Assembly (NCBI GenBank): GCA_944384705.1
Contig: CALWUI010000027.1
Location: 62,001 to 126,000, forward strand
Direction of reading: 5' to 3'
From: an uncultured Clostridia bacterium
Lineage (GTDB): Bacteria; Bacillota; Clostridia; Oscillospirales; Acutalibacteraceae
DNA: 64,000 nt
Positions 2,493 to 58,889 of the stretch are shown piece after piece. How positions within the stretch are numbered: position 1 is the stretch's first letter; every line of letters starts with the position of its first letter. Made by a program: the position numbers and the translations under genes. The notes under the pieces were generated by a model. That model was not told the DNA's origin. It was given only the letters and a program-made list of their open reading frames with translations, and did no database searches.

Positions 2493-2507
2493 AAAGGTGA
2501 AGTTACA

Positions 2508-4667: not shown

Positions 4668-4675
4668 ATATTCAA

Positions 4676-4685
4676 AAGGAGGTGA
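4676..4685 (+). promoter_or_regulatory. ribosome binding site that fixes a TTG start
   Basis: AAGGAGGTGA is a full anti-16S match. The GTG at 4682 lies inside it and cannot be the start, so the TTG at 4691 is the likely initiation codon. Confidence 0.8.
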
Positions 4686-4690
4686 GTCTT

Positions 4691-8138: not shown

Positions 8139-8189
8139 CTATGGCTTGTTGATTTAGGTTGTGATTTTAAATTAATTTAAAAAGAAATG

Positions 8190-8200
8190 TTGAGACTTTT
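8190..8200 (+). promoter_or_regulatory. leader motif TTGAGACTTTT upstream of dnaG
   Basis: This 11-mer differs at one base from TTGAGGCTTTT found in the leaders of rpoB (11390-11400) and rpsL (19030-19040). It lies 23 bases before the dnaG start and 10 bases before the ribosome binding site. Function unknown. Confidence 0.4.
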
Positions 8201-8223
8201 AAATTTTTAGCGGAGGTCTTTTT

Positions 8224-32201: not shown

Positions 32202-32225
32202 AATTGGTTGAAAGGAAAAAAATTT

Positions 32226-42194: not shown

Positions 42195-42208
42195 GAGGTG
42201 GGATATCT

Positions 42209-43465: not shown

Positions 43466-43485
43466 TTTTTAAAAGGAGTGATTAA

Positions 43486-44637
43486 ATGAAGTTCTTTAAA
43501 ATTAGAAAAAAAAATGAATATTCAGCAGTGCAAACTGTTCAGACGCCAAGAAAAACAAATCCTTTTTATGAATTGAATAACTATAATCCTAGAGCACAGG
43601 CCGAATATGAGTTATATGCTTTGTTGCGAGAGGCTGTTCCTATTATCGATGCAGCTATTTGCAAAACAGTTAGACTTGTGGGCAGCTTTAAAATCGATTG
43701 CTCAGATAAAAATATAGAAAATCAGTTAAATAGATTTATCTCTCATGTAAAAGTTAATTCTTGCGAAAACGGTTTGAATGCGTTTATATCTACATATTTA
43801 GACCAAATGTTAACATATGGAACAGCTGTGGGAGAGATAGTTACGAACACGTTAAATAACGACATAGCAGCACTTTATAATGCATCACTTAAAGACATAA
43901 AGCTAAAAACAGGCCAAAATCCTCTAAATTTAGAAGTATGCAAAGAGGACGAGAATGGTAAAGTGATTCCGCTAAAATATCAAAATTTACTTTTAGTAAC
44001 GCCGCTAAAACCAGAGCCTGGTCATATTTATGGCACATCCATTTTAAAAGGTCTTCCTTTTGTGAGCGGGATTTTACTTAATATATACCACAGTATTAAC
44101 GCAAACTGGGAGAGAGTAGGCAATGTCCGTTTTGCAGTTACATATAAACCTGGCCCAGATGCCAGCGAAAAAGCCTACGCAAAAGAGAGAGCTATGCAGG
44201 TTGCTAATGAATGGAGTCGAGCTATGAGTTCTTGTGGAGAAGTGAGTGATTTTGTATCTGTAGGAGATGTAAGTATAAAGGTAATTGGTGCAGATAATCA
44301 AGTTTTAGACAGTCAGGTGCCTGTTCGCCAAATGCTTGAACAAATTGTTGCAAAACTTGCAATACCACCATTTATTTTGGGGCTTTCTTGGTCTACTACA
44401 GAAAAAATGTCTGCCCAACAGGCGGATATTTTAACAAGCGAATTAGAATTTTATAGACGATGTCTAGCCCCAGTTATAGAGAGAATTTGTAATAAATGGC
44501 TTGCGTTTAATGGCATGTACGCGGATTTTAGCATTGTTTGGGATAATATAAACCTGCAAGACGAAGTAGAAACAGCTAATGCAAGGTTGATGACAGCAAG
44601 AGCTGCAGAAATTGAAAAAAGATTGGGGAATATCTAA
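43486..44637 (+). CDS. portal protein
   Basis: A 383-residue protein with the portal layout: an N-terminal wing (LREAVPIIDAAICKTVRLVGSF), a central part (YGTAVGEIV, GHIYGTSILKGLP) and a stem/crown helix (MSAQQADILTSELEFYRRCLAPVIERI). It would form the dodecameric ring through which DNA enters the capsid. It lies between terminase and protease as expected, and its stop overlaps the next start. Confidence 0.85.
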   Translation: MKFFKIRKKNEYSAVQTVQTPRKTNPFYELNNYNPRAQAEYELYALLREAVPIIDAAICKTVRLVGSFKIDCSDKNIENQLNRFISHVKVNSCENGLNAFISTYLDQMLTYGTAVGEIVTNTLNNDIAALYNASLKDIKLKTGQNPLNLEVCKEDENGKVIPLKYQNLLLVTPLKPEPGHIYGTSILKGLPFVSGILLNIYHSINANWERVGNVRFAVTYKPGPDASEKAYAKERAMQVANEWSRAMSSCGEVSDFVSVGDVSIKVIGADNQVLDSQVPVRQMLEQIVAKLAIPPFILGLSWSTTEKMSAQQADILTSELEFYRRCLAPVIERICNKWLAFNGMYADFSIVWDNINLQDEVETANARLMTARAAEIEKRLGNI

Positions 44638-45620
44638 TGAAAGATGGTTATGTTATAAAGAGCAATTCGAATTATGAGGTAAATCATAGTGATCTTGATT
44701 TGATAAACAATTATACTCGCAGAAGGTTAACTGAAGATGACGTATATATTTTTTCTGTAGTACTCTGCGATAATGAAATAGATAGAGAGTACGAAAAATT
44801 TACAAGAGAAGCACTAAAAATTTTAGCAGAAATGTTTGTAGGCAAAACCGGAGTTATAGATCACGAAGCAAAGAGTGAAAATCAAATGGCAAGGATTTTT
44901 GCCTGCAATGTTGAAGATATACCAAATAAAACAAACTCTGTAGGTGAGCAATACTGTAGGTTAGTTGCAAGAGCTTACATGCCAAGATGCGAAAAAAATA
45001 ATGATTTTATTTTAGAAATAGATTCAGGAATAAAAAAAGAAGTAAGCGTAGGGTGTGCCGTAAAAAAAATGACTTGTTCTATTTGTGGCAGCGATGTTAA
45101 AATTGCCCCATGCGATCACAGAAAAGGTGAGTTATACGGTGAATCTCTTTGCTATGTTATTTTAAGTGAGCCTTTAGATGCTTACGAATGGTCCTTTGTT
45201 GCGGTTCCAGCACAAAAAAATGCAGGTGTTATAAAAATGTTCAATTCGTTTTCGAAGGGAGGTGCTAAATCTATGAATGACTTAATTAAATCTATAAAAA
45301 GAGGCGAAGCTGTTACTATTACAGCGGAGCAAGCTAGAGAATTATCTAAGCTGATTAATGAGCTGGAGCGTCTTGCAAGTGAAGGTAAGGAGTATTACAA
45401 CGATTTGAAGCGAGAAGTTATGCGGCTTTGTGCATTAACTCAGCCAGAGCTAAATCCTCAGGTTATGGACAGTGTTACTTCTAAAATGGATTTATGTGAA
45501 TTGAAAGCCTTTAAAAAAGCTTTCGAGATAAAATCAGAAGAAGTTTTACCGGCTAGACCTCAGTTATCTTACTTAAAAAAAGAAAAAACAAATCAAAAAA
45601 TTAAGGACTTTAAAATGTAG
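44637..45620 (+). CDS. prohead protease with C-terminal scaffold region
   Basis: A 327-residue protein. The first 205 residues resemble phage head-maturation proteases: a conserved His in GVIDHEAK and a Ser in KKEVSVGCAV, followed by a Cys-rich knuckle (CSICGSDVKIAPCDH) that may bind zinc. The last 115 residues are helical and charged like a scaffold or delta domain. An internal start with an excellent ribosome binding site separates the two parts. The capsid gene follows 37 bases later. Confidence 0.8.
   Translation: MKDGYVIKSNSNYEVNHSDLDLINNYTRRRLTEDDVYIFSVVLCDNEIDREYEKFTREALKILAEMFVGKTGVIDHEAKSENQMARIFACNVEDIPNKTNSVGEQYCRLVARAYMPRCEKNNDFILEIDSGIKKEVSVGCAVKKMTCSICGSDVKIAPCDHRKGELYGESLCYVILSEPLDAYEWSFVAVPAQKNAGVIKMFNSFSKGGAKSMNDLIKSIKRGEAVTITAEQARELSKLINELERLASEGKEYYNDLKREVMRLCALTQPELNPQVMDSVTSKMDLCELKAFKKAFEIKSEEVLPARPQLSYLKKEKTNQKIKDFKM
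45255..45264 (+). promoter_or_regulatory. internal ribosome binding site for a nested scaffold protein
   Basis: AAGGGAGGTG lies eight bases before an in-frame ATG at 45273 inside the protease gene. Confidence 0.7.
45273..45620 (+). CDS. nested scaffold protein, in frame with the protease
   Basis: A 115-residue product of an internal in-frame start. It is helical, with a long charged stretch (ARELSKLINELERLASEGKEY) suited to a coiled-coil scaffold. The arrangement matches lambda C/Nu3, where the scaffold is made from an internal start of the protease gene so that more scaffold than protease is produced. The assignment rests on position, the strong ribosome binding site and composition. Confidence 0.6.
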   Translation: MNDLIKSIKRGEAVTITAEQARELSKLINELERLASEGKEYYNDLKREVMRLCALTQPELNPQVMDSVTSKMDLCELKAFKKAFEIKSEEVLPARPQLSYLKKEKTNQKIKDFKM

Positions 45621-45657
45621 TCTATAAAAAATTAATTAAATTTATGGAGGAGTAAAA

Positions 45658-46671
45658 ATGGCTTTTTATGATTCAGTAAAACTTGAAAAGGGTATGTATA
45701 ATTTAGGCTTTACAAAAGCATTAGAATCTATAGACCCATCAGAAAACTATGAGGGAACAGACTTAGCTGGCTTAGATGCTTATGAGCGCCAACTAAAAAG
45801 ATTTAATATTAGGGTTAAAGGGCAAAATTCTGATGTTATTGAGAGCTTTTTTAAAACGACAGATTCTGCGGTATTATTTCCCGAATTTGTAAAGCGGAGC
45901 GTTTTGCAGGGTATGGATAGTTCTAATATATTAGCCTCAATAGTTGCAACTGTAACTAATGTAGAAAACAATGACTACAGAACTATAAAATCTACAACAG
46001 ACAGTACGTCAGGAAATTCTGTAAATGAAACAAGCGAACTTCCAGAAACTGCAATTCAAACAAAAACCAGCCTGGTATCAATGAAAAAGCGCGGCAGAGT
46101 AATTTCTACCTCTTATGAGGCTTTAAAACATAAACGTCTAGACCTTTTTGCAGTTATGCTTAGAAAAATAGGTTTTGACATAGCAAATGCACAACTAGGC
46201 GATGCCGTAGATGTTTTAGTAAATGGAGATGAATCTGGAAGCGCCGCGGCAGCAGTTACTCCTGTTAGCACAAGTGGCATAGCTTATGCAGATTTGATCG
46301 AACTATGGGCCAATTTATCCGGTTATGAGCTAAATACAATCTTGGCAAATACCGAAACAATGCAAAACTTGCTTGCATTAACCGAACTGCAAGATGTACA
46401 GACTCTTTTAAGTTTTAAAGATGCTACACAGGTTGTTACACCGCTTGGCGCAACCTTGCACCGTGTTGATAAAGTTGCAGATAATACGATTGTTGGGTTT
46501 GATAAGAACTGCTCATTGGAGATGGTAAGAGTAGGTGACTTAACTGTAGATTACGATAAATTAATTGACAAACAGCTAGAAAGAGCAGCAATTAGTGCGA
46601 CAGCTGGTTTTGCAAAAATTTTTGCAGATGCAGCTAAAAAAATGACTTATACGCCAGCAATAACAGAGTAA
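45658..46671 (+). CDS. major capsid protein (HK97-fold candidate)
   Basis: A 337-residue protein directly after the protease/scaffold gene, behind GGAGGAG. The N-terminal 60 residues are charged and may be the part removed by the protease. The rest resembles phage major capsid proteins (LFPEFVKRSVLQG, SMKKRGRVISTSYEALKHKRLDLFAVMLRKIG, LANTETMQNLLALTELQD). Size and place fit. The fold is inferred. Confidence 0.85.
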   Translation: MAFYDSVKLEKGMYNLGFTKALESIDPSENYEGTDLAGLDAYERQLKRFNIRVKGQNSDVIESFFKTTDSAVLFPEFVKRSVLQGMDSSNILASIVATVTNVENNDYRTIKSTTDSTSGNSVNETSELPETAIQTKTSLVSMKKRGRVISTSYEALKHKRLDLFAVMLRKIGFDIANAQLGDAVDVLVNGDESGSAAAAVTPVSTSGIAYADLIELWANLSGYELNTILANTETMQNLLALTELQDVQTLLSFKDATQVVTPLGATLHRVDKVADNTIVGFDKNCSLEMVRVGDLTVDYDKLIDKQLERAAISATAGFAKIFADAAKKMTYTPAITE

Positions 46672-46690
46672 TCTGAAGGGATGATGAGTT

Positions 46691-47056
46691 TTGAATCTAG
46701 AAAATATTATAGAGCGGTTTGCTTTATTAGCTAGTTTGAGCAAAGAAGAAGCAAATAATTTTACATACATTTGCAGTGATGCAAAAGAAGAGATAATTTC
46801 AAAACTTTTACCCGATGTAGACTTGACTTTGCACAGTGAGCGGCTTATAGCCGCCGCTGGTGCTTTGAGTCTTTATAAATATATGCAGCTTAAGGCGTTG
46901 GGAGAATCTGTAGAGTCTTTTTCTGCTGGAGACATAACTGTAAAAGAAAACATGAGCAAAGCGGTAAAAGTTGCATACGAGATTTGGCAGGACGAAAAAG
47001 CAAAAATATCCGATCTATTAGAGGATGAAGATTTTGTTTTTTGGCAGGTGAAGTAA
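46691..47056 (+). CDS. head-tail connector protein
   Basis: A 121-residue mostly helical protein beginning at a TTG. It resembles gp6/gp15-type adaptors that bind below the portal (SKEEANNFTYICSDAKEEI, AAGALSLYKYMQLKA). It follows the capsid gene and overlaps nothing. The assignment is mainly by position and size. Confidence 0.65.
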   Translation: MNLENIIERFALLASLSKEEANNFTYICSDAKEEIISKLLPDVDLTLHSERLIAAAGALSLYKYMQLKALGESVESFSAGDITVKENMSKAVKVAYEIWQDEKAKISDLLEDEDFVFWQVK

Positions 47057-47057
47057 A

Positions 47058-47405
47058 ATGTTTAGCGATTGTGTTTCTAGCATTATAGATAAATTCGGTA
47101 GAGCGGTTACTATAAACCTGAGTGACAATAGTAAGATTAATACCAAAGCCTTTATTCAGCCTCTAAGATATAAAGATCAGACATATATGGGTGGAAAATG
47201 TTTAGACATAGGTTACTTAGACGGCAAAAATTATCTTTATATCGGAGATAAAAACACTCGACTAGATTTATATCCATTTAACACAAAAATAGATACATTT
47301 AATGAGAGCTATGTTGTAAAAAGAGCACAGGCAGTTTATCTTGGAGAAAATATTTTATACATATGGGCAATAGTTCAAGTTTTTGTGGAGGATGAAGATT
47401 TATGA
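47058..47405 (+). CDS. head closure or minor head protein
   Basis: A 115-residue protein, beta-rich, one base after the connector gene. Size and place match head-closure proteins of PBSX-like phages. I see no diagnostic motif. Its stop overlaps the next start (ATGA). Confidence 0.55.
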   Translation: MFSDCVSSIIDKFGRAVTINLSDNSKINTKAFIQPLRYKDQTYMGGKCLDIGYLDGKNYLYIGDKNTRLDLYPFNTKIDTFNESYVVKRAQAVYLGENILYIWAIVQVFVEDEDL

Positions 47406-47887
47406 GTGTATTTAATCAAATTGTTGACAAAATCAAATTGGATCTTTCAGAAAGTGTCAATTTAGCATCAATAAAATTTATAAGTCTAGATAACGAGGAG
47501 AAAGTACCTAATCCAATCAAAAATACTTATGTTTCATTTGAAATAGAAAAAATTTCAATAAAGGAGGGTTCTTTTAATTCGTTTCTTGGCACAGATACTT
47601 CTGGTGACCGGTATGGAAACAAAATGGAAATTATTTTAGATATGAATATTTTTTCTCCAAGAAAAAGCGGTAGCAAAGAGTGTTACGAAACCTTTTCTAA
47701 AATATACGAAGAACTCCTGCGCCACAGAGAAAATTATAATATTGATGAAATTTCGTGTGAAAAAACTAAATATAATATAGATGTTTTTTCGTTTGAACTA
47801 AACTGTAGCATAAAACTTAGCGCATATCTTGGATACGCAACAGAAGAGATTAATATAAGTGACATAAAAATAAAGAAAAAGAGCTAA
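47402..47887 (+). CDS. tail completion / tail terminator-like protein
   Basis: A 161-residue protein between the head-closure and sheath genes, where PBSX-like phages encode the tail terminator that caps the tube. It contains a mixed alpha/beta pattern. The assignment is by position. Confidence 0.5.
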   Translation: MSVFNQIVDKIKLDLSESVNLASIKFISLDNEEKVPNPIKNTYVSFEIEKISIKEGSFNSFLGTDTSGDRYGNKMEIILDMNIFSPRKSGSKECYETFSKIYEELLRHRENYNIDEISCEKTKYNIDVFSFELNCSIKLSAYLGYATEEINISDIKIKKKS

Positions 47888-47898
47888 GGGGTGATATT

Positions 47899-48945
47899 TT
47901 GACAATATTAGCAAAACAAAGACCAGGTGTGTATTCAGACTATAATACATCAAAAATAATGTACTCACAAAAAACAGGCAAGAGTATAGCTATTGTGGCA
48001 AAATCTAATGCAGAAACAGACAAAATATATAACATACAAAGTCTATTAGATGCTCAAACAATTTTTGAAAGCAGTAGCACAATGTATTTGCTATGCAAAG
48101 CTGTTTTAGAGAATGGAATGAGCAGCATTTTAGCAGTTTCAGTCGGGAGTTCTGACAATAATTACGAGTCAGCCTTTGACCTAATAGAAGCGACCGATGG
48201 AATAAGTGCAGTTATTTGCGACAGTACAAATGATTCTATTCAGCAATTACTGATGCAAAGTGTTTTAAATGCATCAGAGAATAAAAGAGAAAGGTTAGGC
48301 GTTTTAGCGTCACCAGAAAGTAACGATTCACTTAGCACATGGGCCAAACAATTTAATAGTGAAAGAATTCTTTTAATTGCGCAAAGCCCTATAAATTCAG
48401 AAGGAACAACTCTATCGAGTTGCAGTTTAGCGGCAGCTTTGGCAGCTGTAATTTCTAAATATACAGATCCATCTCAGTCATTTAATGGAGCAGAAATAGA
48501 AGGATTTTCTAAAATTAATAAATCTCTTACTGAAGACGAGGTTGATGAATATATAACAAATGGAATTATTCCTTTTGAAGTGGTTGCCGGTAGAATAGAA
48601 ATAATAAGGGCAGTAACCTCTAAAACAACAACTAATGGCGTAGCGGACAAAACATTTAAAGAAGTCAACACAATTTTAATTATTGATGAAGTTATAAAAT
48701 CTATTCGAGAGGCACTTAAAAATAATATTTCTGCAGCTAAGAACAATGTTACAACAAGAAATGCAATAAATAGTCAGGTGACTGTTAAGTTGCAAGAATT
48801 TTTAGATGCTGGAATCATAGATTCATATTCTGCACCAAATGTATATCAATCGAGCGAAGACCAAAGTGTTTGCATTGTAGAAATTGAATTTACAGTTGTA
48901 CAAGGAATAAATCAGATTCATATAACTGCCAATATAAATGTTTGA
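47899..48945 (+). CDS. contractile tail sheath protein
   Basis: A 348-residue sheath protein beginning at a TTG behind AAGGGGTGAT. The N-terminus (KQRPGVYSDYNT) and the C-terminal domain (NTILIIDEVIKSIREALKNN, TRNAINSQVTVKLQEFLDAGIIDSY) match phage sheath proteins. It is short for the family, with few surface domains. It shows that the tail is contractile. Confidence 0.88.
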   Translation: MTILAKQRPGVYSDYNTSKIMYSQKTGKSIAIVAKSNAETDKIYNIQSLLDAQTIFESSSTMYLLCKAVLENGMSSILAVSVGSSDNNYESAFDLIEATDGISAVICDSTNDSIQQLLMQSVLNASENKRERLGVLASPESNDSLSTWAKQFNSERILLIAQSPINSEGTTLSSCSLAAALAAVISKYTDPSQSFNGAEIEGFSKINKSLTEDEVDEYITNGIIPFEVVAGRIEIIRAVTSKTTTNGVADKTFKEVNTILIIDEVIKSIREALKNNISAAKNNVTTRNAINSQVTVKLQEFLDAGIIDSYSAPNVYQSSEDQSVCIVEIEFTVVQGINQIHITANINV

Positions 48946-48956
48946 GGAGGTGCTTT

Positions 48957-49346
48957 ATGCTAAACATAACCTTTCCGACCAGCAAAGACATATACATAGA
49001 GGTAAACGGCAAAAAATTAGCTGTAGTAGAAAGTTACAAAGCAAGATCTACCTGCGAAAGCCAATATATAGAGGCTTTTGGCCAAAATGAACCAGTTGGA
49101 ACGATTTCTGGCAAGGTGCATCATACTATAGAATTATCTAGAGTATACGTCTGCGATGATGACACGAACAGCCGAGTTAATTTTTATGATTTACACAATT
49201 TTAATTTGGTAATAGTAAAGCCCGATAAAAAAATAATTTACTCTGGTTGCGATTGGTCCGATATAAACGAATCAGCTTCAATAAATGGTGCTGTTTTAGA
49301 AGATGTAACTTTGATTGCGGCCAAAAGAATGGAGGTTTCTATATGA
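48957..49346 (+). CDS. tail tube protein
   Basis: A 129-residue protein directly after the sheath gene, from the ATG at 48957 behind GAGGAGG. Size and pattern (KSTCESQYIEAFGQ-like region, GTISGKVHHTIELSRVYV) fit the inner tube protein of myophage tails (XkdM-like). Its stop overlaps the next start. Confidence 0.75.
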   Translation: MLNITFPTSKDIYIEVNGKKLAVVESYKARSTCESQYIEAFGQNEPVGTISGKVHHTIELSRVYVCDDDTNSRVNFYDLHNFNLVIVKPDKKIIYSGCDWSDINESASINGAVLEDVTLIAAKRMEVSI

Positions 49347-49735
49347 AGCCCAAAATAAAACCGTTTGAAGTTTATAAAGGCAAAATTAGAAAAGCAATAA
49401 ATTTGCCTCAAAATAAAAAAGCATACGTAAATTTACTTTCAGTTTACGATATGCTTATTTGTGAAAGAATGTCTAAATCTTTAATTTTAAAACTTATAAA
49501 TGATGGGTTTGAAAGAAGCCAAGCAACAAAAGTTGCCGAAAACGCCTGTTTGAGCGTAATGTGTTTAACGGATCATAACTCTTTGCCTCTTTTTGACAAT
49601 ACAAAAGATTTAATGAACAGCCTAAGTGCAGAAGATATGCTCTGTATAGTAAAAGAATATTCTGAACTTCGCAAGGACTATCTTGGTTTTGACTTGCTTG
49701 ACGAAAAAGAACTAGAGCAGGTAAAAAAAAATTAA
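49343..49735 (+). CDS. tail assembly chaperone, G form
   Basis: A 130-residue protein, from the ATG at 49343 after GGAGG, with stop/start overlap to the tube gene. It is helical and in the position of XkdN/gpG chaperones, which coat the tape measure during tail assembly. It ends in a run of nine A residues, at which a ribosome can slip to make the longer GT form. Confidence 0.75.
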   Translation: MKPKIKPFEVYKGKIRKAINLPQNKKAYVNLLSVYDMLICERMSKSLILKLINDGFERSQATKVAENACLSVMCLTDHNSLPLFDNTKDLMNSLSAEDMLCIVKEYSELRKDYLGFDLLDEKELEQVKKN

Positions 49736-49941
49736 ATTCTAAATTTGAAAGAGCACGTTGGGAAATATTAAAAAAATTCAATAAATTGCCAAATGATCCA
49801 GTTGTAAAAAATATGACAGAAAATGATTATTTATATTGTTATGCACATATGATGCTAGATAAAGAAAAGACTTATGAAGAGTATATTTTTAACGAAAGTT
49901 TTAATCCAGAAGAATACAAAAGAAAGTGTGGTGAATATTAA
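49343..49941 (+). CDS. tail assembly chaperone, GT form by -1 frameshift
   Basis: The -1 frame is open from the A9 run (49723-49731) through 69 codons to the TAA at 49939-49941. It has no ribosome binding site or start of its own after the stop of the G form, so it is best read as the T extension. It is rich in aromatic and charged residues (YLYCYAHMMLDKEKTYEEY). The fusion would be about 199 residues. Frameshifted tail chaperones are conserved in long-tailed phages. Confidence 0.7.
49723..49731 (+). promoter_or_regulatory. slippery A9 frameshift site
   Basis: Nine consecutive A bases (in-frame AAA AAA AAT before TAA) give a classic site for -1 slippage. Confidence 0.7.
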
Positions 49942-50231
49942 TGCAGATATTTGACGCAATATTAAATCAATACATGCAGTTAGCATTAGAAACAAATCAA
50001 TACAAAAACAACTTAAGAATTTTAAATTTTAGCCAAAACTATGTTAGAAAAAGTGACAATAACACATCGATTAGTTTTGAAGCACAAAGTCATAATACAA
50101 TAGCGCAAAGGAATACCTCTTATTATAGCCAAGCAGATAGCAACATTAAAGAAATATATAACAAAATGGAATTTGATGCACGGCGCTACAACAGAAATTT
50201 TGACATTCAGACAGGAGCAGCCGCATTATGA
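49941..50231 (+). CDS. 96-residue protein in the tape-measure position
   Basis: A small helical, Asn/Gln-rich protein whose ATG overlaps the stop of the chaperone extension and whose stop overlaps the LysM gene. In related phages the tape-measure gene, often one of the longest, stands exactly here. There is no trace of a longer frame in either neighbour. The protein might be a minimal tape measure, or a plug or hub adaptor. I do not recognise its sequence. Confidence 0.65.
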   Translation: MQIFDAILNQYMQLALETNQYKNNLRILNFSQNYVRKSDNNTSISFEAQSHNTIAQRNTSYYSQADSNIKEIYNKMEFDARRYNRNFDIQTGAAAL

Positions 50232-50749
50232 AATTAAATGTTATGAAATTTAAAAATTATATTTGGCCATATAACCCTGCCAATATAGAAATATTAATAC
50301 AAAGATCGATAAAAGAAGTTATTATTCCGTTTAGAGGAAACAAATTTCAAGACTATGGCAGAGAAAAGAGAGTTATTACAGGTTCTGGGCAATTTTTTGG
50401 AGAAAACTGCATAGACCAATTTGACGAACTATTTTTTTTATTCAAGCAGGGAGGAAATGGTTATTTAGCTTTGCCAGGGATGGCGCCTTTTTTGGCTATT
50501 TTTAAGCGTCTTGAATTAATTGCTTCTACAACAGAAGTTTTAAATTATAGCTTCGAATTTTGGGAAGATCTAGCGCAAACAGAATCTAGTTCAGTTCTGT
50601 ATGAAGACTATTATACAGTTTTAGAAGGGGATACGCTTTGGGATATTTCGGTGCGATTTAATATTCCGGTAGAAACCTTATTAGCGTTAAATACTAATAT
50701 AAAAAATCCGAATCAACTAAGAGTGGGCGAAAGGTTGCGATTACGATGA
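50228..50749 (+). CDS. LysM tail protein (XkdP/gpX-like)
   Basis: A 173-residue protein. The N-terminal part binds tube or hub in relatives. The C-terminal 45 residues form a LysM domain (YYTVLEGDTLWDISVRF, LRVGERLRLR). LysM binds peptidoglycan-like sugars or, in tails, bridges tube and hub. The start overlaps the previous stop and the stop overlaps the next start, as in PBSX xkdO-P-Q order. Confidence 0.88.
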   Translation: MKLNVMKFKNYIWPYNPANIEILIQRSIKEVIIPFRGNKFQDYGREKRVITGSGQFFGENCIDQFDELFFLFKQGGNGYLALPGMAPFLAIFKRLELIASTTEVLNYSFEFWEDLAQTESSSVLYEDYYTVLEGDTLWDISVRFNIPVETLLALNTNIKNPNQLRVGERLRLR

Positions 50750-51693
50750 AATATCTTGCAACGACGATATCAGATGAAGAAATAGATTTAGGTCCTGCTT
50801 ATAATGTTCAAATAAATAGATCTAAAGAAGCACCTGCAGATAGTTTAACTGCAGTTTTTTTTAGTCAAAAAAAACATTCGGAATATAAAAATTTAGCAGT
50901 TTACACAGAAAAGAATCAATTATTTTTTTCCGGCATTGTTGATGAGCAACAGTTTGAGGTAAGCGAGAGTGGCTGCTTTTTAACGATTAAATCCAGAAGT
51001 AACACAGCATATTTAATTGACAATGAAGCTAGTCCGCAAATTTATAAACGTCCTTCGCTTGATATTATTTTTAGAAGACACGTGGAGCCATATGGTTTCA
51101 CTTCGGTAATTGGTGATAAATCTATTTTTAACGTGACGCTTGAAGTTGAAAAAGGCATGAGCGAGTGGGATGTATTTGAGCAGTTTTGTAGGTTATGCTT
51201 AAAAGAATTTCCCATTGTAAATCCAAATGGAGTTATTGATGTATCAGGAAGATCTGAGTCGGATTTGATATTATTTTCAAACAAGAATGACGGAGTTAAT
51301 TACAGCGCGGTAAATCAAAAATATAGTAGGTACAAATTGATTTCAGAGATTACCGTATGTGCTCCGTATGCGGCTATTTATGTAGATAAAATTAAGGCTC
51401 AAGAATTAATAAATAAAGGAATTAGCCGCAGGAAGTTTATAAGCATGTCGGAAGACACTGAAACGTCTAAGGCAATATCTGTGAGCACAGCAGAACAGAT
51501 GATTTATGAATCAAAAAAGAAGTTCAATGAAATTATAATAAAATGCCCGGGAGCAGTTTACGCGCAGCTTGGCAACAAGTGTGAGATAAATGACTACATA
51601 TTGGGCAGCATGAAAAATTTGCAAATTTATGAGATCGATTATATTTTAAACCATAATGGAGAATTTACACTATTCACACTATTGGAGGGATAA
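50746..51693 (+). CDS. baseplate hub protein (gpD/XkdQ-like)
   Basis: A 315-residue protein like the gp27/gpD hub that continues the tube into the baseplate (ADSLTAVFF near the start, LDIIFRRHVEPYGF in the middle, KCEINDYILGSMKNLQIYEIDYIL near the end). It follows the LysM gene with ATGA overlap and precedes the spike gene. Confidence 0.82.
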   Translation: MKYLATTISDEEIDLGPAYNVQINRSKEAPADSLTAVFFSQKKHSEYKNLAVYTEKNQLFFSGIVDEQQFEVSESGCFLTIKSRSNTAYLIDNEASPQIYKRPSLDIIFRRHVEPYGFTSVIGDKSIFNVTLEVEKGMSEWDVFEQFCRLCLKEFPIVNPNGVIDVSGRSESDLILFSNKNDGVNYSAVNQKYSRYKLISEITVCAPYAAIYVDKIKAQELINKGISRRKFISMSEDTETSKAISVSTAEQMIYESKKKFNEIIIKCPGAVYAQLGNKCEINDYILGSMKNLQIYEIDYILNHNGEFTLFTLLEG

Positions 51694-51696
51694 AAT

Positions 51697-52032
51697 ATGT
51701 GGCTTTCAAAACAGATAAGCAATGCATGCAAATTAATAAAAAACACACAAATAGGTGAGGTGACCTCAACTCACGACGATACAGTAACGGTACAAACAAG
51801 TGAAGAACATAGAGAAATAAAAGTTGCAGCACCTTTTGGAGTAATATCCATTCCACCAACTGGAGCAAAAGCTGTAGTCACGCCAACGGAGCAAGGTTTT
51901 ATTTACACAGGAGTATTAAATCAAGCTTCTGATTTAGAGCCAGGAGAGTTAATGCTATATTCAAGCGGGGGTGCAAATATCGTATTAAAAAATAACGGTC
52001 AAGTTTTGATAAATGGTACAGCTTTGGAATAG
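51697..52032 (+). CDS. baseplate spike protein (gpV-like, OB fold)
   Basis: A 111-residue beta-rich protein (VTSTHDDTVTVQT, VISIPPTGAKAVV, PGELMLYSSGGANIVL). It resembles the OB-fold and start of the needle of gpV/gp5 spikes that pierce the target envelope. It is short, so the needle would be a stub. Start behind GGAGGGATAAA. Confidence 0.72.
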   Translation: MWLSKQISNACKLIKNTQIGEVTSTHDDTVTVQTSEEHREIKVAAPFGVISIPPTGAKAVVTPTEQGFIYTGVLNQASDLEPGELMLYSSGGANIVLKNNGQVLINGTALE

Positions 52033-52042
52033 AGGTGATATT

Positions 52043-52390
52043 TTGGATACAGCAATTAGCAGTGGAGATTTTATTTGTGATTCAAAAGGATATCTTATAG
52101 AGTTATCGGGTTATGATGAACTTTTGCAGAGGATTCTGATACGCCTGACAATAAAGCAGGGTAGTTTTGTATATGATACTTCGCTTGGTAGCCGCCTTTA
52201 TACGTTAAAACCAACGGATATAAATATAAAAAATCGAGCATTGTCAATGATTAGAGAGGCACTAGCAGATGTTACGGAAGTAATAGTTGATGATGTATAC
52301 ACTGCGTTGACAAATGAAGGAGAAAATCTAGAATTGACAGTGATGCTATCAATAAACGATACAGAGAAAGATGTGGTGATAACAATATAA
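52043..52390 (+). CDS. baseplate wedge protein gp25-like (gpW/XkdS)
   Basis: A 115-residue protein from the TTG at 52043 behind AGAGGTGATA. It has the gp25/lysozyme-like fold pattern, with QRILIRLTIKQGSFVYDTSLG and the EVIVDDVYTAL segment. gp25 nucleates sheath assembly on the baseplate. Its stop overlaps the gpJ start. Confidence 0.82.
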   Translation: MDTAISSGDFICDSKGYLIELSGYDELLQRILIRLTIKQGSFVYDTSLGSRLYTLKPTDINIKNRALSMIREALADVTEVIVDDVYTALTNEGENLELTVMLSINDTEKDVVITI

Positions 52391-53451
52391 TGGAAAGTTA
52401 TGAAGATATTTTAAAAAGAATGAGAAGCAAGTTCACAGAATTAAGCGGAGCAAACATAAACGATGATTCGGATGTTGGCATAAGAATGAAGGTTTTGGCA
52501 GGAGAAATATTTTCTTTACAGAATAATGTTCAATGGCTCAAAAATCAGATGTTTGCGCAAACAGCTCAAGGTGAACAATTAGATTATTTAGCATTAGAAC
52601 GAGGATTAACTAGAAAATCAGCACTTAAATCTACAGGAACGCTTAAATTTATGAGAGATTCAGCACTCGACTATGATTTAGAGATACCAGTAGGAACAAT
52701 CTGTTCAACCAATGGAATTAATCCAATAAGAGTAAAAACCATAGAATCCGCAATTTTAGAGACTGGAGATCTTTCCGTAACAGTTCCAGCAGAGTCAGAA
52801 GAAGGCGGAACGCTACAGAATACAGGAGTAGGCACGGTAAAAATCATGGTGACGCCACCTGCAGGGATAACTTATGTAACAAATGAGACCGCATTTGTTG
52901 GAGGCATGGATGCAGAAAGCGACGAAGAATTAAGAGAAAGACTCATAGATAGTTACAAAAATATTTCTAATGGAACTAATGCAGCATTTTATAAATCTCA
53001 GGTTTTAAAATACGATGGTATATACTCGGCGAGTGTAGTAGGCAAAGCTAGAGGAGTAGGCACAGTAGATATTTATGTTGCGGCAAAAGGTGGGTTGCCA
53101 AGTGATGCACTGGTCTCAGAAATACAATCAGAGATAAATTCAATAAGAGAACTTAACGTAGATGTTAAAGTGTACAAAGCAGAGGCAGTAGAAATAGCGG
53201 TTGGAGTAGATATATCTGTAAAAAATGGCTACAGTTTTGATGCAATAAAAGAGCAATGTATAGCGAACATAACAGAGTATTTTAACACTCTAAAAATAGG
53301 TGAACCATTTCTTATCGCGGCTCTTGGCAATGCAATTTACACTGTGCAAGGAGTGGAGAATTATTACATTTTATCGAGTATTAGCACAGATAGATATACA
53401 ACTTCAAAGCAACTTGCAATAAAAGGTTCTGTGCAGATCTCAGAAAGGTGA
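52390..53451 (+). CDS. baseplate protein J
   Basis: A 353-residue Baseplate_J family protein. It opens with the typical segment (YEDILKRMRSKF, FAQTAQGEQLDYLALERG), and GGMDAESDEELRERLIDSYKN and GVGTVDIYVAAKGG are in place. It forms the wedge of the baseplate with gp25 and gpI. Confidence 0.92.
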   Translation: MESYEDILKRMRSKFTELSGANINDDSDVGIRMKVLAGEIFSLQNNVQWLKNQMFAQTAQGEQLDYLALERGLTRKSALKSTGTLKFMRDSALDYDLEIPVGTICSTNGINPIRVKTIESAILETGDLSVTVPAESEEGGTLQNTGVGTVKIMVTPPAGITYVTNETAFVGGMDAESDEELRERLIDSYKNISNGTNAAFYKSQVLKYDGIYSASVVGKARGVGTVDIYVAAKGGLPSDALVSEIQSEINSIRELNVDVKVYKAEAVEIAVGVDISVKNGYSFDAIKEQCIANITEYFNTLKIGEPFLIAALGNAIYTVQGVENYYILSSISTDRYTTSKQLAIKGSVQISER

Positions 53452-53461
53452 TGGTATCTAA

Positions 53462-54034
53462 ATGAGTTCGCTCAATTCTATTAAGCAAACACTTCGTCCG
53501 TTAGGTTTTTATAATCTTAACGAAAATACGCTAATCAATGCGGAACTTTCGGCCTATGCTATGGTTCTAGATGAGATATCCTTGCAACTTTCTGAAATAG
53601 AAAGAGAAAGATTCATCTCAACAGCAGAAAGTTATGGCCTGAGCATGAGAGAACTAATTTTTACAACAGAACAAAATGAAAAAACTGCCCAGGAAAGAAG
53701 AGACGTACTATTATATAGAACAGCAATTACTCCTAATGATTTTAATGAGAGTAGCATAAAAAGAGCAATGGAAATAGCCGGTGCAACAGGCTATATAATT
53801 GAAGACCATAGCAACAGCACTGTATATATTAATTGTCTGGAGCTAGCTGATAGTTCACCAGATAAAGAGACCATAAAAAGTATGATATCAGAGTTTTTAC
53901 CGGCACATCTTGAATGCATATTCGATTTTAGAAATCTGCAATGGGATACATTAGACAGCAAAGATAAAGTCTTTGACGAATTTGATTCAGATGATTTAAC
54001 CTGGAACGAAATAGATAATTATGAAGAAATATAG
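53462..54034 (+). CDS. baseplate/tail protein I-like (YmfQ family)
   Basis: A 190-residue protein after gpJ, matching the YmfQ/gpI type that attaches fibres to the wedge (LRPLGFYNLNENTLINAELSAYA, ERRDVLLYRTAITPNDFNESSIKRAME, FLPAHLECIFDF). Its C-terminus is acidic. Confidence 0.8.
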   Translation: MSSLNSIKQTLRPLGFYNLNENTLINAELSAYAMVLDEISLQLSEIERERFISTAESYGLSMRELIFTTEQNEKTAQERRDVLLYRTAITPNDFNESSIKRAMEIAGATGYIIEDHSNSTVYINCLELADSSPDKETIKSMISEFLPAHLECIFDFRNLQWDTLDSKDKVFDEFDSDDLTWNEIDNYEEI

Positions 54035-54045
54035 GAGGAGAAAAT

Positions 54046-54519
54046 ATGCCAACAGAAAATAAAACTACAAATTTAGGATTAAATAGCTGGTTAGGTACAG
54101 ACAAGCCAAAACGGGCAGATTTTGTATCGGATAACACAATATTGGATACAGTGATAAGCAATCATCTAAACGACGATACATTGCACCTGACTGAAGAAAC
54201 TAAAGCTTTAATAGAAAACCCATTTACAATAGGAGTACTTTCTGGCGACGGTGAGGCAAGCAAAGATCATACACTTAGCTTTTTTCCACGTTGTGTTTTC
54301 ATTTTTTTAAGGAATGCACCATTTATAGAATATGATTCAACAAACGGATATACAGTTTGTAACAGCGCCGTAGTAGCAGCGGACGGTGGTGGAGGGACCC
54401 CCGGAGCATCTTTGTTCTTAGACACGCTAACGCTTTCTCAAAGCACTTCAGCCAGCAATGGCAGATTTATAAACTTGAATAAGAGCGGCGCACAGTATTT
54501 TTATATAGCTTTTAAGTAA
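54046..54519 (+). CDS. short tail fibre or baseplate tip protein
   Basis: A 157-residue protein. The first 60 residues (TTNLGLNSWLGTDKPKRADF, HLNDDTLHLTEETK) are the usual N-terminal attachment part of clostridial phage fibres. The rest is a short Gly/Ser-rich beta domain (ADGGGGTPGASLFLDTLTL). No chaperone or long receptor-binding domain follows, so host contact would be by this small protein alone. It is last in the operon. Confidence 0.78.
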   Translation: MPTENKTTNLGLNSWLGTDKPKRADFVSDNTILDTVISNHLNDDTLHLTEETKALIENPFTIGVLSGDGEASKDHTLSFFPRCVFIFLRNAPFIEYDSTNGYTVCNSAVVAADGGGGTPGASLFLDTLTLSQSTSASNGRFINLNKSGAQYFYIAFK

Positions 54520-54526
54520 AAATGAG

Positions 54527-54557
54527 CCCTACAAAATTGTAGGGTATTTTTATTTTA
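54527..54557 (+). terminator. terminator of the particle operon
   Basis: CCCTACA and TGTAGGG form a stem with a 4-base loop, followed by TATTTTTATTTTA. Confidence 0.85.
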
Positions 54558-54582: not shown

Positions 54583-55824
54583 TTATTTTATAGAGCAAAA
54601 GTTATCAAACTTAGGATTTACCAACATATCTCCACAAATAACATTATTGTTTGTTGAGTTTTTTTTGCTAAATATTGATTTTTCGAATAATAAATTTAGA
54701 CTTGTAAAAATTTTTGCTCTAAAATGTTTATTTTTGTAACAAAAAAGAACATCTGCAAGCAGCCTAGTTGTTTTAATATCGAATCTTAATATTTTTGACG
54801 AGTATACAATAGGAATTTCGTCATAATTTTGCTTTAATATAAATAATTTTGGAATAATTTTCAGACGTTGATGGGAAATAGCCTCATAGTTAAAAAGATC
54901 GGCATTGCCAGGGTTTAAAATATTTAGCAAATCAGAGAAATATTGATTACATATTAAATTTTTTAAATAATTTTCTTTTATCAAGTAAATTTTTTTTGTT
55001 TTAAAGCCTTGTGAATCATATTTTATCCCATTAAATGGAAGAGAAACAAGATCAAAATTAAAATTAAAAATTTTATTATTAATATCTTTAGTTTTAATAA
55101 AGCTATTTTCAAAGTAAACATTGTTTGAATAAAATGCAATTATATACTGATTAAGAAATTCTGCGACCACGTTACTTTTAAATAGTATAGGTTTAGATAG
55201 ATCTAAATTTTTATAAAGAAAATTTACTTTGTTATAACTTATTTGCTTTTGCAATAGATAAGAAATAGAATTTTTTAGTGGATTAAAAAATGATATAAAA
55301 AAATTCTCAAGTATGTTGTCAGATTTATAAAAGAAGCCTTCAATATGAATAATTTGCTGCTGAATTCGTTTATTGCTTATAATTATCAGTTGCTGGAGAA
55401 TCTTGATCTCTATAGTAGCATTCAACTTAAGTTTACAGTTTTTTAATACATAATCAATATCAGTTTCGAGATCATTTATACATTTGCGCGGACAAAGAAA
55501 CTTTGAACCATTGAAATTTAGGCTATCAAGTTTAACACTTTTTATTTTTTTGCTTATAAAATTTTTATGCATGCCAAAAAGTAAAGCTGTCTCTATTAAT
55601 TTTTTTATATTTTTATAAGAAGTTTCTTCAGAAAGTTTTAGCTCTATAGGGTTCTTGTTGATTTTAAAATTCAAAGTGATATTTATTAGATTTGCATTCT
55701 CCAAAATTTTTTTATTATTGCATTTGTAGCTAAATATAACTTTTGTTAATCTCTCTTTAATAATTTTATAATTAAAGATACCGTATTCAATCAAAACATT
55801 TTCTATAAAATTTATTTTATTCAT
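54583..55824 (-). CDS. TldE/PmbA-like protease subunit
   Basis: A 413-residue diverged TldE. The C-terminal half keeps the family's landmarks (VVAEFLNQY, YDSQGFKTKKIYLIKENYL, PGNADLFNYE), while the N-terminal half is very rich in Asn, Lys and Ile. There is no HEXXXH motif, as expected for the non-metal partner. TldD and TldE form a heterodimeric metalloprotease that threads and cuts unfolded peptides, for instance the microcin B17 leader. Its start overlaps the end of the TldD-like gene by 8 bases. Last gene of the cluster. Confidence 0.78.
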   Translation of the reverse strand: MNKINFIENVLIEYGIFNYKIIKERLTKVIFSYKCNNKKILENANLINITLNFKINKNPIELKLSEETSYKNIKKLIETALLFGMHKNFISKKIKSVKLDSLNFNGSKFLCPRKCINDLETDIDYVLKNCKLKLNATIEIKILQQLIIISNKRIQQQIIHIEGFFYKSDNILENFFISFFNPLKNSISYLLQKQISYNKVNFLYKNLDLSKPILFKSNVVAEFLNQYIIAFYSNNVYFENSFIKTKDINNKIFNFNFDLVSLPFNGIKYDSQGFKTKKIYLIKENYLKNLICNQYFSDLLNILNPGNADLFNYEAISHQRLKIIPKLFILKQNYDEIPIVYSSKILRFDIKTTRLLADVLFCYKNKHFRAKIFTSLNLLFEKSIFSKKNSTNNNVICGDMLVNPKFDNFCSIK

Positions 55825-56992
55825 GTAGATTTCCCTGCAGAATTGGAATTTTTGACAGGCTTATAGTTGGAGCTAAAACTCCTACGCGAACCAACTGATT
55901 TAACTTTCCACAGAAAGAAACGGTAATCTGAGGGTCATTGCCTATAAAATCCAAATATTTCAAATCAGTTAATACGTTACCGTTGATAATAAGGCTACTT
56001 ACAAAATTTTTTATTTCTCCATTTTTTACTATAAAACCTTCACCGGACAAAACATATTTGTCCGAATTAAAAGTGGTGTAAGCAGATCTAATTTTAGACA
56101 TAAATAAGGCATTTTTATATCTAGCAATAATATCATTTTGAGCGTAATTATTTACAGTTTTTATCTTTGTAAAGCGCATTCTGGGCAAAGAAATGGTTTT
56201 AAAATTTTCGCGTCGAGCAAAACCATATAGTTTTCTATCAAAGCTTGATTTTTTATTAATGGCCATAATATTTGTTATTTTTCCAGCAGATATTAATTTT
56301 AAAGGTTTTATTTTTGTTCCTCTGTCATCGAATTTATTTAAACCAATAAAATGTTCGTAACCAGTTATATCATCAACTATTTCTATTTTTTTAGGTATAT
56401 TATAATTTTCAAAAAGTTTTTTATTAAAACAAAAAAAATCCTCTTCAAGCAAGTGCCCAATTATTTCGTGGATAAAACACCCAGCCGCCTGTGCAGACAA
56501 AATTACCGGGTAATTAGTCCTGAAAAAAGGTTTAGCTGTTAAAAATTTTTTCCTGATAATTTTTTCAAAGTAACATATATAAGTAGAAATTTGATCAAAT
56601 AAAAGCTTAAGATCCCGTGTGATAGCAAATTCACTTGAAAAATTTTTATTATTTATATTCATTATGATTTTTATAAAGCCATATACTCTGAAATCTTTTT
56701 TTTCATCAATTAATATAGTCTCGCTATGCATTTTTAAATATGCCGAAAAAGATGTTTTTAAACTTTTAAGCTTTTTAAATATATTCTCTAAGAATATTTT
56801 AAGGGTATAAATATCATTATCATTTAAAATAAAAAAGCCATAATTATTTGTTGTAGTGGACTTACAAGTTTTAATTTTTATTGTTCCATTTTTCAACTGA
56901 ACCCGATCTCCACTTAAAGATTCAAAAGTATATTCAAATTTTCCGTTTGTATATTTGATAATAAAATCGTTATTATCCTGTATATAATACAT
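55817..56992 (-). CDS. TldD-like metalloprotease subunit
   Basis: A 391-residue TldD homologue, from the ATG at 56992 behind TTGAGG. An open frame 16 codons longer overlaps the radical SAM gene and is less likely. The catalytic HEXXXH is present as HEIIGH (His175, Glu176, His180), and a Cys near the C-terminus (SFCGKLNQLVRVG) fits the third metal ligand known in TldD. It is co-translated between the radical SAM and TldE-like genes. The likely role is leader or precursor cleavage of the modified 65-residue peptide. Confidence 0.85.
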   Translation of the reverse strand: MYYIQDNNDFIIKYTNGKFEYTFESLSGDRVQLKNGTIKIKTCKSTTTNNYGFFILNDNDIYTLKIFLENIFKKLKSLKTSFSAYLKMHSETILIDEKKDFRVYGFIKIIMNINNKNFSSEFAITRDLKLLFDQISTYICYFEKIIRKKFLTAKPFFRTNYPVILSAQAAGCFIHEIIGHLLEEDFFCFNKKLFENYNIPKKIEIVDDITGYEHFIGLNKFDDRGTKIKPLKLISAGKITNIMAINKKSSFDRKLYGFARRENFKTISLPRMRFTKIKTVNNYAQNDIIARYKNALFMSKIRSAYTTFNSDKYVLSGEGFIVKNGEIKNFVSSLIINGNVLTDLKYLDFIGNDPQITVSFCGKLNQLVRVGVLAPTISLSKIPILQGNLHE

Positions 56993-56999
56993 AGCAACC

Positions 57000-58280
57000 T
57001 CAAGATTTAAATATAATTTTTTGGCTTTCGTACCACTCACAATTTTCTAAAAGTTTTTTATGTTTGCTTAAAGCTTGTGCTATGCATCCACTGCATTCGT
57101 TTTCAAATTTACACCCAGAGCATGTTGAATGATCAGGAATTTTAATTTTGCTCAGTAATTCGTTACTTTTTTTCATAATGTCCTCAAAAGAATTTACATT
57201 AATGTTGCCCAATTTTAAACCCATAACAGGACAGGGCTTGACATCCAAGCCAGAGGTTATATGGATTATTTGACGTCCTGCCCCACAATTATAATTTTTA
57301 TCTTTGACTGCATTTTTAATTTTAAAGCCATCATCAGAATATTTTTTATCCAAGTAAAATAAAAATTCAGATATTTTTTTATTATCATACTGAGATTTTA
57401 ATTTATTTTTATTTGCATTTCCTTTATTTATCAACAAGCCTATTTCCACATAATAAACTCCCAAAGATTTTACTAACTCAACCAAATTTTCAAAATCATT
57501 GAGGTTTTGGTCAATTGCAGTAACTGCTACCTGGCAAGGAATATTATACTTCTTTAAATTTTTAATAAAATTTATTGTATTTTCGAAAGCCTTAGAATTT
57601 TTTCGTATATCGTTATGTATTTTTTTGTTGCCATCTAAACTAACTCTTACTGCGCTACTTTTTACTTCTTTCAAAACTTTTAAAATTTTAAAAGTTCTAA
57701 AGTCATATTTAAATCCACTCGTAAGTAAGATAATGGGGATTTTAAAATTTAATATTTTGTTTAAAATATATTCTAAGTTAGGATGTAAAAGAGGGTCTCC
57801 TCCAGTTATTTGTATAGAGCGAAGGCCGCATTCAGATATTATTGATAAAATTTTATCTATTTGATTCAGAGAAATGAATTTGCTGTTTTTTTTATCTAAA
57901 TAGCAATGTTTACAGTCCAAAGGGCAATAATCTGTTATCTCCCAAGATATAATATCTGGATAGTAAACTTTATTACTTCCTTTAATAAAATTGTAAGTTT
58001 TTATCGAAGGATTATCTCTAAATACAATTATGTTTTTTTGTAAAGCATCATACAAAAAATTATAGACCTTACCTTTTAATTCTTTATAAGAAATTTCATA
58101 TTTTGTTAATAGTTTTTTTATTATATCGTCTACATCCATACTTCCATTACATAAAGAAAAAATATCTAAAGCAGTTTGATTTATAATCAAATTAGCAGAA
58201 GGCAAAATATCAGGATTACACAGTTCAAATTTGTCTAATTTTATTTTTAAAAAGAAATTTTCTTTAAACTGAGGATACAT
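57000..58280 (-). CDS. PqqD-fused radical SAM/SPASM peptide-modifying enzyme
   Basis: A 426-residue enzyme. Residues about 30-90 resemble a PqqD-like peptide-binding domain (TALDIFSLCNGSMDVDDIIK). The radical SAM core has the CX3CX2C cluster motif (Cys119, Cys123, Cys126 in CPLDCKHCYL) and QITGGDPLLHP. The C-terminal SPASM region has Cys residues for auxiliary Fe-S clusters (NCGAG, KPCPVMG, CSGCKFENECSGC). Such enzymes make crosslinks (for example Cys to alpha-carbon) on ribosomal peptides. It lies 135 bases after the precursor gene and 7 bases before the TldD-like gene. Confidence 0.9.
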   Translation of the reverse strand: MYPQFKENFFLKIKLDKFELCNPDILPSANLIINQTALDIFSLCNGSMDVDDIIKKLLTKYEISYKELKGKVYNFLYDALQKNIIVFRDNPSIKTYNFIKGSNKVYYPDIISWEITDYCPLDCKHCYLDKKNSKFISLNQIDKILSIISECGLRSIQITGGDPLLHPNLEYILNKILNFKIPIILLTSGFKYDFRTFKILKVLKEVKSSAVRVSLDGNKKIHNDIRKNSKAFENTINFIKNLKKYNIPCQVAVTAIDQNLNDFENLVELVKSLGVYYVEIGLLINKGNANKNKLKSQYDNKKISEFLFYLDKKYSDDGFKIKNAVKDKNYNCGAGRQIIHITSGLDVKPCPVMGLKLGNINVNSFEDIMKKSNELLSKIKIPDHSTCSGCKFENECSGCIAQALSKHKKLLENCEWYESQKIIFKS

Positions 58281-58415
58281 TATTCAGCTCCAAATCCAAA
58301 TATGTAGGAATTAAGAAATAATTAATTTTAGTACATTTAAGAGTCAACCAATTACAAAAAAGCAAAGTCAAGGATTATGTTATTCATAGCAAAGCAGCGC
58401 AGCTATAAACAAAAA

Positions 58416-58613
58416 TCAAGCGCCCACCGCGGCCGGAGCAACGACAGCAACTGCCGGAGCTAAACAAGATGCAATAAGAGGAGCCGCCATTGGCGCAGCA
58501 GAAGATGCAACAGGCACAGAACAGACAAAAAATTCTGCACCAGATATTTTTGGCTCTTCGAAAACTTTTTTAGAGGTTTTAACTTTTTTTTCTTTAAAAG
58601 CATTCTTTTTCAT
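58416..58613 (-). CDS. candidate RiPP precursor peptide
   Basis: A 65-residue peptide behind a strong GGAGG site. The first 24 residues are Lys/Glu-rich and leader-like. A Ser-Gly-Ala at 24-26 resembles a double-glycine-type cut site. Residues 27-65 form a hydrophobic core with 13 Ala, 7 Val, 5 Pro and just two Cys (31 and 50). The core is more GC-rich than its surroundings because of Ala and Pro codons. The radical SAM and TldD/E genes follow on the same strand. The two Cys are candidate crosslink donors. I do not recognise the family. Confidence 0.75.
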   Translation of the reverse strand: MKKNAFKEKKVKTSKKVFEEPKISGAEFFVCSVPVASSAAPMAAPLIASCLAPAVAVVAPAAVGA

Positions 58614-58813
58614 AATTATTTCCTCCGAATCTTTTGCAAAGTTTAATAACTTCAGTTTTTTCTTTAAGTATAAGAATTTTTATTGTTATTTTTTGTCAAA
58701 TTTTGTTGAAAAACAATTTTAAAATAAAAAATGTACGATAGTATCTATATTGTTGTATTATTATATGAAAAATAATAGCTTTTAAATATTAATCTATATT
58801 ATTTTTTATTTTA

Positions 58814-58889
58814 TGGTGGACGTTAACGGACTCGAACCGCTGACCCTTCGCACGTCAAGCGAATGCTCTACCAGCTGAGCTAAACGTCC
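58814..58889 (-). tRNA. tRNA-Val (anticodon GAC)
   Basis: A minus-strand cloverleaf with acceptor GGACGTT/AACGTCC, anticodon stem TTCGC/GCGAA around loop TTGACGT (anticodon GAC) and T-loop TTCGAGT. The 3' CCA is encoded. The 200 bases between it and the precursor gene hold only AT-rich DNA. A TTGACA and a TATACT occur there on the minus strand but 21 bases apart. Confidence 0.95.

Follow-up and report, generated by a model that had tools for sequence, protein, structure and literature searches.

A four-gene operon in the window analysed here (64,000 nucleotides of contig CALWUI010000027.1, positions 62,001 to 126,000, from an uncultured Clostridia bacterium) probably encodes a sactipeptide-like pathway for a ribosomally synthesized and post-translationally modified peptide (RiPP), in which a TldD/TldE pair would act as the dedicated leader protease. 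The operon occupies positions 58613 to 54583 of the minus strand and comprises, in this order, the genes of a precursor peptide, a PqqD-fused radical S-adenosylmethionine (SAM)/SPASM enzyme, a TldD-like protein and a TldE-like protein, as an earlier note on this DNA had described. As far as can be read from sequence, its product is very probably a hydrophobic peptide with chemical cross-links, akin in style to the antibiotic subtilosin. The host (genome G000) is a small-genome Clostridia bacterium, assembled to 1.09 Mb in 30 contigs and 99.5% complete. It was compared with two other genomes of the same genus: G002, a sister species whose metagenome-assembled contig CALWIK010000002.1 (E17__bin4) carries all four genes at the corresponding position, in the same order and on the same strand, with flanking DNA about 85% identical, and G001, a third species of the genus, which is devoid of it.

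The maturase gene (57000..58280, minus strand; 426 amino acids) shows the architecture of sactipeptide-type maturases. Pfam recognizes a PqqD-like leader-binding domain at residues 33-85 (31.8 bits, cut-off 23.4), a Radical_SAM domain at residues 114-270 (81.9 bits, above cut-off) and a SPASM domain, the region of the auxiliary cysteines, at residues 332-391 (24.8 bits, cut-off 21.5), and it detects no B12-binding domain. The CX3CX2C motif lies at C119/C123/C126 and is followed by seven C-terminal cysteines (C332, C350, C387, C390, C396, C399 and C414); both cysteine groups had been pointed out in the earlier note, and all ten residues are kept in G002. The NCBIfam model of the subtilosin maturase AlbA aligns over residues 31-418 (388 residues, 6e-34) with 117 bits against a cut-off of 850, the SkfB model reaches 80.3 bits against a cut-off of 300, and by far the best match among solved structures is SkfB (6efn, 6e-17). 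Judged by these matches, the enzyme can be recognised as one of AlbA/SkfB type, its closest named relatives being maturases of sactipeptides, although it scores far below the curated cut-offs. In a tree of PqqD-radical SAM-SPASM enzymes it falls, with weak support (73/89), among those of loci L160, L162 and L230. These PqqD-containing relatives adjoin Cys-rich ORFs (open reading frames) of sactipeptide type, namely MFEPEYMEVEASCSDCLNCAVCVTFPGLDAELAGTLMLAQLG at L160 and METPKMNAAPICVGCMACGECIICGPTPSGTECAAVAVGLSAFYN at L162, and a further relative on an Anaerococcus plasmid has an Apre_1838-family sactipeptide gene near it. At L230 (positions 7907-9631, genome G1419), a 63-residue ORF with a Cys-rich first half and an Ala/Val/Gly-rich second half directly precedes the AlbA-like enzyme; this locus is likely a sactipeptide cluster, with no TldD/E nearby.

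The precursor gene (58416..58613, minus strand) encodes 65 residues and is preceded by a GGAGG ribosome-binding site (58622..58626, minus strand) within some 40 bases common to G002; at least 30 bases upstream of the ORF, GGAGG included, are nearly identical in both genomes. A leader of about residues 1-25 would be followed by the predicted core (residues 26-65, AEFFVC...VGA; 58419..58538, minus strand), the border being placed where conservation between G000 and G002 sets in and the cleavage site being putative. The core holds just two cysteines, Cys31 and Cys50, 19 residues apart and followed by an Ala/Val/Pro stretch, and 13 alanines lie within residues 27-65, just as had been claimed. Both cysteines are conserved in G002. 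Between these two genomes, identity amounts to 75% for the radical SAM enzyme, 81% for TldD, 72% for TldE and 74% for the precursor, the latter being divided into 46% for the leader (residues 1-24) and 90% for the core (residues 25-65). Within the core, 14 base changes have resulted in 4 amino-acid changes versus 9.2 expected without selection (p = 0.002), and a pN of 0.046 versus a pS of 0.283 (Fisher 5e-4) indicates purifying selection at the protein level; the leader shows no such constraint. Since the core is selected while the leader drifts, the precursor is a real gene with a leader and a core. Neither Pfam nor NCBIfam holds a match to it, and its core is unlike any peptide in the libraries searched. 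A possible conserved hairpin between the precursor and maturase genes is not significant in the window (z -1.2) and moderate in G002 (z -2.7).

In the proposed pathway, the charged N-terminal leader would be bound by the PqqD domain, and the radical SAM enzyme would then join Cys31 and Cys50 to the backbone of residues of the Ala/Val/Ser type to generate two thioether rings. These thioethers are predicted because an AlbA/SkfB-like enzyme is paired with a core that contains cysteines and is rich in Ala, Val and Gly. As the defining bond is a prediction, the system is called sactipeptide-like on account of its enzyme and core sequences, and a full sactipeptide assignment is withheld. It is rather unlikely, albeit worth weighing, that TldD/E mature a peptide on which the radical SAM enzyme has made a different change, such as a thioether to a beta or gamma carbon (ranthipeptide-like), a carbon-carbon or carbon-oxygen link or an epimerisation, while the cysteines stay free, form a disulfide or are mere bystanders. 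SPASM enzymes are chemically diverse and no named family reaches its cut-off here, and the core also contains a conserved FFVC and Pro-punctuated Ala/Val stretches, its cysteines being spaced unlike those of the Cys-dense sactipeptide-type ORFs. On the other hand, the nearest enzymes, AlbA and SkfB, both form S-to-C-alpha bonds, the two cysteines are conserved, and the PapB ranthipeptide model (cut-off 340 bits) is not among the 25 best NCBIfam matches, all of which score below 127 bits.

The second half of the operon encodes the protease pair. The TldD-like protein (55817..56992, minus strand) measures 391 amino acids from ATG 56992 or 407 from GTG 57040, and the TldE-like protein (54583..55824, minus strand) measures 413. 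The ATG, which has a ribosome-binding-site-like GAGG in front, is the preferable tldD start, as it marks the onset of conservation with G002. It leaves 7 bases between the maturase gene and tldD (the GTG would give a 41-base overlap), and tldD and tldE overlap by 8 bases, which agrees with the spacing given in the earlier note. Both proteins exceed the PF19289 cut-off of 22 bits, TldD with 80.1 bits (1.7e-22) and an intact HEIIGH motif, TldE with 38.6 bits (8.8e-10) and no HExxxH metal motif, so that the motif and the pairing reported before are upheld. Alignment of the TldD-like protein to Escherichia coli TldD (5nj5) spans residues 176-398 and brings both HExxxH and the C-terminal Cys-Gly-Lys (FCGK) into register; its first 160 residues have no match. 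The TldE-like protein matches the TldE profile over residues 208-308 (87% probability, E 4e-6). The TldD-like protein misses the NCBIfam cut-offs of the housekeeping equivalogs. No second TldD was found in G000, and the clusterless G001 is without any TldD. The relatives search turned up TldD homologues in 11 of its 60 genomes; within the family, 27 of 300 genomes have them, as do many other Bacillota. The TldD/E pairs sampled in other Clostridia and Bacillota are mostly full-length and stand-alone, with no radical SAM gene. A genome-contig scan based on the TldD alignment keyed on N-terminal patterns and found G002 alone. Given that this is the sole TldD of its genome and that other pairs are mostly full-length and stand-alone, the cluster proteins are, by sequence, a shortened, divergent and dedicated pair; a housekeeping role in G000 was rejected on the grounds of the single copy.

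In microcin B17 biosynthesis, the TldD/TldE heterodimer trims the leader of the modified precursor like a "pencil sharpener" (PMC5810440, PMC10885120). By analogy with this model, the heterodimer encoded here, with TldD providing the metal site, would shorten the unmodified leader step by step, starting at its N-terminus, and stop at the first cross-link near residue 31. The metal ligands of TldD are conserved in the window protein. The systems differ in that microcin B17 depends on housekeeping TldD/E encoded outside its cluster and has an azole core, whereas the present pair is clustered with a radical SAM enzyme and includes the only TldD of the genome. TldD/TldE would thereby take the role that AlbE/AlbF play in subtilosin maturation, and the product would most likely be a membrane-active bacteriocin, for which the export gene would lie outside the cluster. 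A pair of ABC half-transporters (32208-36304), some 18 kb away, was noted as a possible, unproven peptide exporter.

A complete NHLP-type bacteriocin exporter (HlyD-like protein, C39-peptidase ABC protein and second ABC protein; 1896-6880), both ABC subunits of which score above the NCBIfam cut-off, lies 50 kb from the cluster and is conserved in G002. Together with the fact that the conserved core begins around S-G-A (S-S-A in G002), it would allow for a pathway in which the leader is removed elsewhere, for instance by the C39-type exporter protein (2508-4667) at the ...SGA/EFF junction, leaving TldD/TldE to clear failed precursor or to degrade the product for self-protection. This is improbable: Pfam and NCBIfam find no Nif11 or nitrile-hydratase-like leader on the precursor, the double glycine is absent (the G002 peptide reading S-S-A), G000 owns Nif11-type precursors for such exporters, and in both species tldD directly follows or overlaps the gene of the maturase. 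Those precursors, several in number, follow a second NHLP-type ABC pair on contig G000:C13 (locus L194), and in view of this separate set the exporter was also judged unlikely as the transporter of the cluster.

Even less credit is due to the idea that the peptide is a mere scaffold from which TldD/E excise a small modified fragment serving as cofactor or signal, as in PQQ, mycofactocin or pearlins. The combination of PqqD-radical SAM enzyme and protease is also the PQQ-type plan, and pearlin clusters contain TldD/E (PMC10885120, PMC12715798), but the whole 40-residue core is conserved where a scaffold would keep a short motif only, and no genes for a peptide aminoacyl-tRNA ligase or a dehydrogenase stand beside the cluster. 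Finally, although a phage-like head-tail module lies directly beside the cluster and the small ORF has no Pfam or NCBIfam match, it is hardly conceivable that this ORF has nothing to do with the enzymes (being, for instance, a remnant phage or membrane peptide, with the radical SAM enzyme, TldD and TldE acting on another substrate), since G002 has it in the same place, with the same upstream region and a core under selection, and G001 has the phage-like module without the cluster, which puts the ORF outside that module.

Several observations weigh against a sactipeptide-like pathway with a dedicated TldD/TldE protease. The main gap concerns export, as the cluster contains neither an exporter nor an immunity gene. 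The enzyme misses all NCBIfam radical SAM cut-offs by a wide margin, and two cysteines are fewer than most known sactipeptides possess. The TldE assignment spans roughly 100 residues, the N-terminal half being without a match, and AlphaFold models of TldD and TldE, built from two-row alignments, were unusable (pLDDT about 30). Homologous precursors were found in two genomes only, none of them beyond the genus. In addition, the tree does not make the enzyme a sister of the radical SAM enzyme of L198, the other locus with this gene combination (see below); its weak neighbour is L150.

Among characterised systems, the subtilosin A cluster offers a close parallel in plan. Its maturase AlbA likewise combines a PqqD-type N-terminal domain with radical SAM and SPASM domains, its precursor is a small hydrophobic Cys peptide, and its peptidase, AlbE/AlbF, is a catalytic and non-catalytic M16 pair that cleaves the leader (PMC12731061). 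The peptidases themselves differ, being M16B proteins with an HXXEH motif in subtilosin and TldD/TldE (HExxxH, M103) here; no AlbE/AlbF-type M16 gene is present in the cluster, both protease genes of which belong to the PmbA/TldD family. Subtilosin A also has three cysteines versus two, and the present cluster is without exporter and immunity genes of its own. As for SKF, its maturase SkfB gives the best structural match, whereas the score falls short of its profile (80 of 300 bits) and the precursor is unrelated; SKF clusters are not known to contain TldD/E. The cluster is assigned to neither family because their cut-offs are not reached and their protease genes are missing. The nearest published case of such a pairing is that of the biphenomycin (Pbs) clusters, which combine a radical SAM cross-linking enzyme with a dedicated in-cluster protease, a TldD-type protein that completes the peptide without TldE (PMC12257519, PMC12707348). 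They differ in their B12-dependent enzyme, in an MNIO making ortho-tyrosines and in an aromatic FRF core, none of which is present here. In the open-access literature searched, no SPASM enzyme was found to be described together with TldD/TldE, an account in a subscription journal (e.g., in radical SAM RiPP atlases) being possible.

In about 2000 genome searches across the family, order, class and phylum, no copy of the trio of radical SAM enzyme, TldD and TldE was found outside the genus. The best-scoring BLAST relative of the radical SAM enzyme outside the genus (29% identity over 430 amino acids, 161 bits) belongs to locus L198 of a distant 3.56 Mb Bacillota genome, G1174. As in the window, L198 unites a small Cys/Val/Ala-rich ORF (40 residues, MNTPAYKGKKIAGCVGCAVVGLNPGLVSFPCIPWYVAAAV), a PqqD-radical SAM-SPASM enzyme of the SkfB/AlbA kind (157 and 103 bits, respectively), TldD and TldE. 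Unlike in the window, its small ORF has three cysteines (CX2C plus one), an ABC ATPase and permease stand between the maturase and TldD, and TldD is full-length (467 amino acids). The AlbA/SkfB-like enzyme and TldD/TldE thus recur in combination, and since the two maturases are not sisters, TldD/E may have been recruited twice or more. By this locus and those of L196, L197 and L144 (see below), radical SAM peptide enzymes in Bacillota have TldD/TldE as a dedicated partner repeatedly. The radical SAM gene next to tldD at L080 was excluded from this count, being read as a sulfatase-maturase-like gene beside housekeeping tldD/E.

The locus is judged to be a genuine RiPP cluster. The earlier proposal that the radical SAM enzyme modifies the core and TldD/E mature it is partly supported and withstands the refuting conditions set in the earlier note, a small ORF being conserved beside the enzyme and no curated family matching precursor or enzyme at its cut-off. 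The accompanying suggestion of an undescribed family holds only by half, as the enzyme is of AlbA/SkfB type, TldD-family RiPP proteases are known and L198 is a second such cluster. A bolder proposal, offered here tentatively, is that of a distinct Bacillota class of radical SAM RiPPs in which AlbA/SkfB-like maturases with dedicated TldD/TldE act on differing cores (two-Cys Ala/Val/Pro in the window, three-Cys at L198). In this view, the present enzyme would form two thioethers, long-range or of a new type, on a core that is aliphatic almost throughout. Few steps of radical SAM RiPP biosynthesis are as poorly known as leader proteolysis. A dedicated TldD/TldE pair beside an AlbA/SkfB-like enzyme would represent a sequence-tolerant tool that halts at a cross-link, would show that two unrelated protease families have come to serve as the two-subunit protease in clusters of the subtilosin kind, and would provide, in the gene combination, a new genome-mining marker for peptides that current models miss.

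Other neighbourhoods with TldD/E were noted during the searches. In G1174, further tldD/tldE pairs lie beside several radical SAM genes (L196, L197). In L196 (7208-15496), a tldE-tldD pair comes after the genes of a 605-residue protein and of three radical SAM enzymes and an ORF of 30 residues with the C-terminus ...DGGVIC, an arrangement that suggests a separate multi-enzyme radical SAM peptide pathway. L144 (3825-12895, genome G799) combines a B12-radical SAM enzyme, a radical SAM enzyme, an acyl carrier protein, TldD, TldE, a PapB-like radical SAM enzyme and an ABC transporter. At L195 (6957-17415), TldE and a 410-residue TldD adjoin ABC genes and a protein that binds flavin, resembles thioredoxin reductase and is weakly PqqD-like at its N-terminus; by its gene content, this is an unusual RiPP-like neighbourhood.

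The cluster is bordered by tRNA-Val (58814-58889) on one side and, on the other, by the compact phage-like module (41694-54519), which encodes a terminase, a portal, a major head protein, a contractile-tail sheath and a baseplate. No integrase or replication genes were recognised beside it, its gene order is the same in G001 and G002, and a search of 24 other genomes from the same genus or family found a single copy of its head protein in 16 (42-93% identity). The module could be a domesticated phage particle or a gene-transfer-agent-like element of the family. The possibility that the cluster is phage cargo was rejected, because the module of G001 stops at the same tail gene and is not accompanied by the cluster; viral contigs yielded no relative of the radical SAM enzyme, TldD or the precursor. 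A hairpin flanked by T-runs (54526..54545, both strands) separates tldE from the phage tail gene convergent with it and is, from its sequence, likely a bidirectional terminator.

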